Source: Chloroflexota bacterium (GTDB lineage: Bacteria > Chloroflexota > Chloroflexia > Chloroheliales > Chloroheliaceae). Taken from it: DNA of 64,000 nucleotides. The notes under the pieces were generated by a model. It made no database searches. It saw only the letters and a program-made list of their open reading frames with translations, and had not been told where the DNA came from. The translations under genes were made by a program, and so were the position numbers. The stretch spans positions 1 through 64,000 of the forward strand of contig JAQBPB010000041.1 in the NCBI GenBank assembly GCA_028287745.1, given 5' to 3'. Each line of letters opens with the position of its first letter. Positions within the stretch are counted from its first letter, which is position 1. Shown here piece by piece: positions 24,326-25,442 of the stretch.

Positions 24326-24925
24326 TTACAATCCTTCGGATTTGACCCTTTCAGTTACCTGTACCAAAGTTTCATAGGGTTGGGCACCTGAAACCAGATA
24401 TTTTTCACCGAATACCAGGGCCGGTACACCGTTGAATTGATTATCGTAGGCTTCATCCAGATCGGACTGAAAGGCCTTGACGTATTCCGGGTTTTCCAGT
24501 ATTTGGTCCAGGTCGGTTATTTCCAGGCCAATTTGCCGGGCGATATCCTTTAGGACGGCTGTATCATCAATAGCCTGGCCTTTTTCCCAGTAAGCTTGCA
24601 TGGCGGCTTCCTGGTACTCTTTTCCCAGTCCCTGGGCTTCGGCATATTTTGAAAGAATATGAGGCTGAATACTGTTAACTTCAAAGGGGCCGGGATGCAT
24701 TTCTATCCCATAATCTTGCCGGACTCTTTCGGCAAACTTTGGCCGGGAAGCTTCGATTTGCATCTTCTTGGCCGGAGGCATTGGGGGTGACCCGGGGGGC
24801 CGCAATAAAAAGGATTTCCAGTGAATTTCAACATCATGGGTTTTTTCGAGTTTCTTCAAACTGAAGCTTACAAGATAGCAGAACGGTCAAACAAAATCAG
24901 ACCATACCTCTATTTTCACAGTCAT
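24326..24925 (-). CDS. DsbA/FrnE-family oxidoreductase with in-frame TGA at the catalytic Cys (probable selenoprotein)
   Basis: Read from ATG 24925 (ribosome site GGGGAG), the protein begins MTVKIEVWSDFV, followed by TGA (24889-24887), then PFCYL. The frame continues without another stop for 186 codons (199 in total). The TGA stands exactly where FrnE-type thioredoxin-fold oxidoreductases have the first Cys of the CPxC active site, so the predicted motif is Sec-Pro-Phe-Cys. The rest is typical of the family: RPPGSPPMPP loop, a helical insertion, and the cis-Pro region GVPALVFGEKYLVSGAQPYE. A short hairpin with a G-first loop lies 25 bases after TGA. Ordinary prediction would wrongly start at TTG 24859 and lose the active site. 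The alternative is a nonsense mutation in a pseudogene, which I consider less likely because everything else is intact. Confidence 0.72.
24854..24889 (-). promoter_or_regulatory. Candidate bacterial SECIS element
   Basis: On the minus strand, after TGA and a 20-base spacer, CTTCA (24866-24862) and TGAAG (24858-24854) form a five-pair stem with the loop GTT. A G in the first loop position, a stem of at least four pairs and 25 bases from TGA to the loop all agree with the known loose rules for bacterial SECIS hairpins. Short stems like this also occur by chance. Confidence 0.5.
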
Positions 24926-25000
24926 TTTATCTCCCCTATCACTTGGCATGCCAGGTTAAATTTTCGGCTGGGGCAATCCGCCCCTGCTTGATTGGGGCGC

Positions 25001-25130: not shown

Positions 25131-25442
25131 TTAATTTTTATGTCTGTGGTGTTCAAAAAGCTGGCTGACTTCAGTAAGAGCATCCAATTTGCCGGTCCAA
25201 TAGGTTTTCTGCGCAGGGCTTAAATCTCGCAGCAATTGGGCTACCGCGTCGGCATGGAGCATCTCAATTTCCGAGCCGAATTTACCTAATATTTTTGAAC
25301 ATACGCCAATAATTAACTCTTGATGGACCCCCGGAACCTGTTCCCAGGTATCAAGCAGATAACCGGGGATTTGTTCACGATATATTGGAGCCAAATTCTC
25401 AAATGTTTCACCAAAGTGTCCGGCTAGTTCCGTAGTTTTCAT
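25131..25442 (-). CDS. Hypothetical small soluble protein
   Basis: A 103-residue, mainly helical, acidic protein with no signal peptide or membrane segment. Several short amphipathic helices are separated by Gly/Pro turns. A single Cys (VCSKILGKFG) and a His-rich C-terminus (FEHHRHKN) are visible. The ribosome site GAAAGGAAA precedes ATG 25442, and an extended -10 (TGCTATAGT) lies at 25482-25474. It was not recognised as a known family. It lies about 200 bases upstream of the selenoprotein candidate and has its own promoter. Confidence 0.6.
   Translation of the reverse strand: MKTTELAGHFGETFENLAPIYREQIPGYLLDTWEQVPGVHQELIIGVCSKILGKFGSEIEMLHADAVAQLLRDLSPAQKTYWTGKLDALTEVSQLFEHHRHKN

Follow-up and report, generated by a model that had tools for sequence, protein, structure and literature searches.

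A DsbA/FrnE-Like Protein of a Chloroflexota Bacterium with an In-Frame UGA Probably Read as Selenocysteine

An In-Frame UGA at the Active Site of a DsbA/FrnE-Like Protein

Analysis of a stretch of 64,000 nucleotides from a Chloroflexota bacterium (contig JAQBPB010000041.1, positions 1 to 64,000; here termed the window) revealed a minus-strand coding sequence at 24326–24925, whose in-frame UGA is, overall, best explained as a selenocysteine (Sec) codon in a cytoplasmic DsbA/FrnE-type thiol/disulfide oxidoreductase, a reading to which we assign a probability of about 95%. The frame extends from an ATG at 24925 to a TAA at 24328–24326, encodes 199 residues, and contains a single TGA (24889–24887), which corresponds to codon 13 and is followed by 186 codons. 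The N-terminal part of the protein reads MTVKIEVWSDFV-U-PFCYLV, so that Sec would be the N-terminal residue of a UPFC motif in the context WSDFV-U-PFC. An earlier note on this DNA, made from the sequence alone, had described the frame WSDFV-TGA-PFCYL and its open continuation in the same way, and both were confirmed here. The read-through protein matched the Pfam domain DSBA (PF01323) with an E value of 5.3e-36. Its sole cysteine, Cys16 (TGC, 24878–24880), is the resolving cysteine of UPFC and occupies an invariant alignment column. Pro168 in the motif GVPA (24422–24424) is likewise invariant in the homologue alignments and is a candidate for the cis-proline facing the active site, the role of which is established for DsbA-fold enzymes.

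The AlphaFold model (pLDDT 95.8, pTM 0.90) displayed a DsbA-type thioredoxin fold, with Sec13 located at the start of helix 1. Since strand 1 begins at residue 3 and thus leaves no room for a signal peptide, the protein is predicted from the model to be cytoplasmic. FrnE of Deinococcus radiodurans was the best match by sequence profile (9e-37) as well as the best PDB match by fold (E 6e-14, TM 0.83), which upholds the DsbA/FrnE assignment of the earlier note. Another branch of the DsbA fold has to be considered here, namely that the UGA is indeed read as Sec, but in a selenium analogue of 2-hydroxychromene-2-carboxylate isomerase or of GST-kappa that is no disulfide reductase. Both match the model by fold (TM 0.81 for the isomerase and 0.73–0.77 for GST-kappa), but both are surpassed by FrnE in this respect and also by profile, where the corresponding value was 7e-13, and the UPxC or CPxC motif with its invariant second cysteine is a redox motif. 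2-Hydroxychromene-2-carboxylate isomerase is not known to have a CxxC pair. Altogether, we regard this alternative as unlikely.

Translation table 11 lists one open reading frame in this region, which starts at an internal TTG (24859) and comprises 177 amino acids without the active site, as the earlier note had anticipated for standard annotation. Such a frame would be in line with two products, i.e., termination at the UGA together with internal initiation at this TTG, giving a truncated protein with a function of its own. However, no ribosome site was seen upstream of the TTG on reading the sequence, the TTG itself lies inside the hairpin described below, and the product would lack strand 1 in addition to the active site. 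A strong Shine-Dalgarno sequence (AGGGGAG, 24931–24937, minus strand), already proposed in the earlier note, is located 5 nt upstream of the ATG at 24925, and residues 7–19, as judged from the homologue alignment, are among the best conserved of the whole protein. A scheme of two products is thus very improbable.

No NCBIfam model matched the Sec protein at E 0.001; other thioredoxin-like models gave no more than weak cross-matches that stayed well under their cut-offs. Together with the late starts that standard gene calling sets downstream of the catalytic residue, this means that a sizeable group of redox enzymes in Chloroflexota is probably mis-annotated. Scans for promoters and terminators around the gene gave results at chance level, and no conserved operon was found among its neighbouring genes. 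Upstream, a 103-aa open reading frame (25131–25442, minus strand) without a Pfam match was observed.

Homologues and Selection Downstream of the UGA

The phylum was sampled with 400 genomes, and matches at E 1e-20 or better were counted from the result table: 59 genomes contained a homologue, 40 of them with exactly one TGA and 19 with none. All 23 TGA loci that were read in this sample carry the TGA at the first position of UPxC. A second search was directed at named genomes using an alignment in which X stood for Sec, which resulted in 360 matches, while a query with the single protein retrieved no relatives. Among 80 loci of named genomes, the position in UPxC was occupied by TGA in 47 and by a Cys codon in 33; these 47 TGA loci and the 23 of the phylum sample have a few genomes in common. 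The TGA loci of named genomes belong mainly to Ktedonobacterales, Anaerolineae, Thermoflexales, and Caldilineae, whereas Herpetosiphon is among the carriers of a Cys codon. Thus, the in-frame UGA of the window stands where every homologue checked has either TGA or a Cys codon, which is the alignment result that the earlier note had asked to be looked for. The Sec orthologues (n = 48, window included) are 38–51% identical, and in a quick tree the window protein groups with the Sec members of the orthologue clade.

The orthologue was not found in two congeneric and two confamilial genomes, though tRNA-Sec and selA are present there, which indicates that the gene is either dispensable or horizontally acquired. 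This absence, together with the truncated frame as the only one obtained with table 11, is what could be put forward for a pseudogene that arose by a nonsense mutation at the active-site cysteine of a DsbA-like gene. On the other hand, dozens of distant genomes share this TGA, and the frame is otherwise intact; the frame damage in other strains that would point to a pseudogene according to the earlier note was not detected in any of the Sec relatives. For the codons after the TGA, seven pairs of related Sec orthologues gave dN/dS values of 0.06–0.16, similar to the value of 0.098 for a Cys pair, showing that the region downstream of the UGA is translated and under purifying selection. This effectively excludes both a pseudogene and a sequencing error.

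A SECIS Hairpin with Conserved Pairing

The G-first hairpin that had been suggested 25 bases after the TGA is present at 24854–24866 (minus strand) and consists of a 5-bp stem and a triloop, CUUCA-GUU-UGAAG, in which the loop G (24861) lies exactly 25 nt after the UGA. Its stem on its own yields only −1.6 kcal/mol, stretches of 49–62 nt starting from the UGA fold at −5.9 to −6.3 kcal/mol with z about 0 for the single sequence, and the lowest-energy fold of the window sequence favours an adjacent hairpin with the loop GAAG. It is therefore the comparative evidence, not the folding energy, that marks the hairpin as more than chance. The full set of five pairs forms in 45 of the 48 Sec orthologues, whereas none of the 15 Cys orthologues has it; within the 13 nt aligned to 24866–24854 of the window, the 3-nt loop starts with G in 48/48 Sec orthologues.

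Counted from the loop, concerted changes on both sides of the stem were detected for pair 2 (C-G/G-C), pair 3 (C-G/U-A), and pair 4 (U-A/G-C/C-G), which require at least three changes on the tree for pair 3, one for pair 2, and four for pair 4. Most of the orthologues have C-G at pair 3, but the window has U-A there; one arm of the stem thereby encodes Phe instead of Ser and the opposite arm Lys instead of Glu, which means that pairing has been maintained across two amino-acid changes. When the letters of the 3' side were re-dealt, the observed pairing was matched in 0 of 2000 trials, a procedure that does not remove the relatedness of the sequences. RNAalifold, run with no structure supplied, returned this hairpin alone for the Sec set (−5.16 kcal/mol) and nothing for the Cys set, while codon-order shuffles gave a mean of −0.14 and were as low as −5.16 in 0/200 cases.

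Published criteria for bacterial SECIS elements (PMC13188914) comprise a loop of 3–9 nt with a G as its first or second base, an upper stem of 4–16 bp, and a distance of 16–37 nt from the UGA, along with a free energy not above −7.5 kcal/mol. With its 5-bp stem, its 3-nt loop GUU led by G, and its distance of 25 nt, the window hairpin agrees with this geometry, and its loop starts with GU as in the published pattern. It falls short of the energy value alone, which is a search threshold and not a statement on mechanism. The hairpin is intact in the window and follows the TGA rather than the Cys codon, and the TGA recurs in assemblies made independently, among them the complete Ktedonosporobacter rubrisoli genome (CP035758). 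A sequencing or assembly error that turned TGC or TGT of a Cys enzyme into TGA therefore has a negligible probability, even though a Cys codon is just one base away.

Selenocysteine Machinery of the Host

The host genome of the window (6.3 Mb) possesses the complete set of genes that the earlier note had named for checking, i.e., selA (592 bits), selB (341 bits), selD (355 bits), and a tRNA-Sec with the anticodon UCA (67 bits with Infernal/Rfam), which was also called by ARAGORN. The selD frame (G000:C20:66257-67204; L019 1501-1600) has an in-frame TGA of its own (TSLAACAGUAAKMGPKDL, active site AACAGUAAKMG), so that besides the DsbA/FrnE-like protein the host very probably makes a second selenoprotein, a Sec-containing selenophosphate synthetase. 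Across the phylum sample, selA was detected below E 1e-80 in 38 of the 40 TGA-bearing genomes. As selA is present in 321 of all 400 genomes (80%), its co-occurrence with a TGA-containing homologue is weak evidence by itself and only mildly informative. Taken together, 24925–24326 is a genuine gene, and the results strongly support its reading as a selenoprotein.

Relation to Known DsbA-Like Proteins and Proposed Action

DsbA-like selenoproteins of the UxxC type (COG2761/PF01323) were described in 2005 in the Sargasso Sea selenoproteome (PMC1088965) and have appeared in later surveys (PMC1794560, PMC9312934, and PMC13188914, there as ‘DsbA-like protein form 1’). The gene of the window shares with them the Pfam domain, a UxxC motif with Sec first (UPFC), Cys homologues at the Sec position, and a bacterial SECIS element downstream. 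The published proteins, to which it is likened here by description, derive from metagenomes and scattered genomes, whereas the gene of the window is a member from Chloroflexota. It represents a new member of these DsbA-like selenoproteins, one that is probably un-annotated; thus, the ‘new selenoprotein’ of the earlier note is new as a gene, but its family is not.

FrnE of D. radiodurans (DrFrnE, DR_0659; PDB 5cnw, 5co3, 5coh, 5cp1, and 5xwh) is reported to be a cytoplasmic disulfide reductase, and its loss to make cells more sensitive to cadmium and diamide (PMC8945050). It is 31% identical to the Sec protein, is cytoplasmic as predicted for the latter, and has CPWC at the place of UPFC. Besides Sec instead of the first cysteine, the major difference is the C-terminal CxxxxC pair, which occurs in many but not all FrnE proteins and has been proposed to regenerate the active site in DrFrnE (PMC8945050). 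As the Sec protein lacks this pair, its regeneration must differ from that of DrFrnE. No Sec homologue had the pair, as against 18 of 43 Cys rows. Its absence as a consequence of Sec was considered and rejected, since close Cys orthologues lack the tail too and the pattern follows the tree more than the Sec or Cys state. Among these are the orthologues of Herpetosiphon (e.g., H. aurantiacus, CP000875), which are 42–44% identical to the Sec protein (WSDFVCPFCFLV), of equal length, and without the CxxxxC tail, but have a Cys codon for the UGA and no SECIS hairpin, though genomes of this group (f3/g5) have selA and tRNA-Sec. The host genome also encodes an FrnE-type paralogue (G000:C79:47396-48025) with a DSBA domain and 31% identity to the Sec protein, which with its CPWC active site and CEGDSC tail is an ordinary Cys enzyme.

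Based on these features, a course of action can be proposed. At the ribosome, SelB with GTP and Sec-tRNA-Sec (UCA) would bind the hairpin CUUCA-GUU-UGAAG, and Sec would be inserted at codon 13 in place of termination. The selenolate of Sec13 would then attack a substrate disulfide presented by Pro168, Cys16 would resolve the mixed selenenylsulfide, and the enzyme might be recycled by a cytosolic thiol system, either thioredoxin or low-molecular-weight thiols. By analogy with DrFrnE, we lean towards a reductase or isomerase in protection against disulfide stress rather than a disulfide maker.

Exchange and Origin of Selenocysteine

The distant Sec homologues (27–34% identity) revealed a hairpin in another register (L039, L041-L049, L051-L054, L120, and L122). 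In the orthologue clade, the loop is GUY (3 nt) with the G at 25 nt, while the distant clade has a 6-bp stem and a 5-nt loop of the GGUCG type, whose G is located 20 nt after the UGA, i.e., 5 nt nearer to it. This suggests either a migration of the hairpin along the coding sequence or independent gains of Sec. Nine exchanges between Sec and Cys were counted on the quick tree, of which well-supported branches force only two. We put forward tentatively, and consider rather doubtful, that this Chloroflexota family acquired Sec at one and the same active-site position on at least two occasions, a separate SECIS hairpin coming with each gain, along with repeated switching between Sec and Cys. The register of the distant homologues was the less expected result. 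Because Sec and Cys orthologues in this group are close relatives and its SECIS element is short and well resolved, the group offers a good natural series for studying the benefit of Sec to a disulfide enzyme, and also how a SECIS element emerges or shifts within coding sequence.

Some further observations were made among the loci compared. In five genomes (L059, L067, L069, L091, and L110), an open reading frame called by eye as serine-recombinase-like ends 15–233 nt upstream of the Sec gene; it is not found beside the gene of the window, but the five include the nearest tree neighbours of the window protein. The Cys-type FrnE of a Thermoactinomycetaceae MAG (L132) has CPFC and, a short way downstream of this motif, an in-frame TGA (KRRUEQ) at a position that is Leu or Met in its relatives; this TGA is attributed to frame damage or a sequencing error rather than to Sec. 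Finally, the Sec protein of a Pleurocapsa minor MAG (L105), whose cyanobacterial label may be due to a binning error, and the Cys protein of Chloroflexi OLB15 (L112) adjoin each other on the tree, pointing to a recent switch between Sec and Cys.
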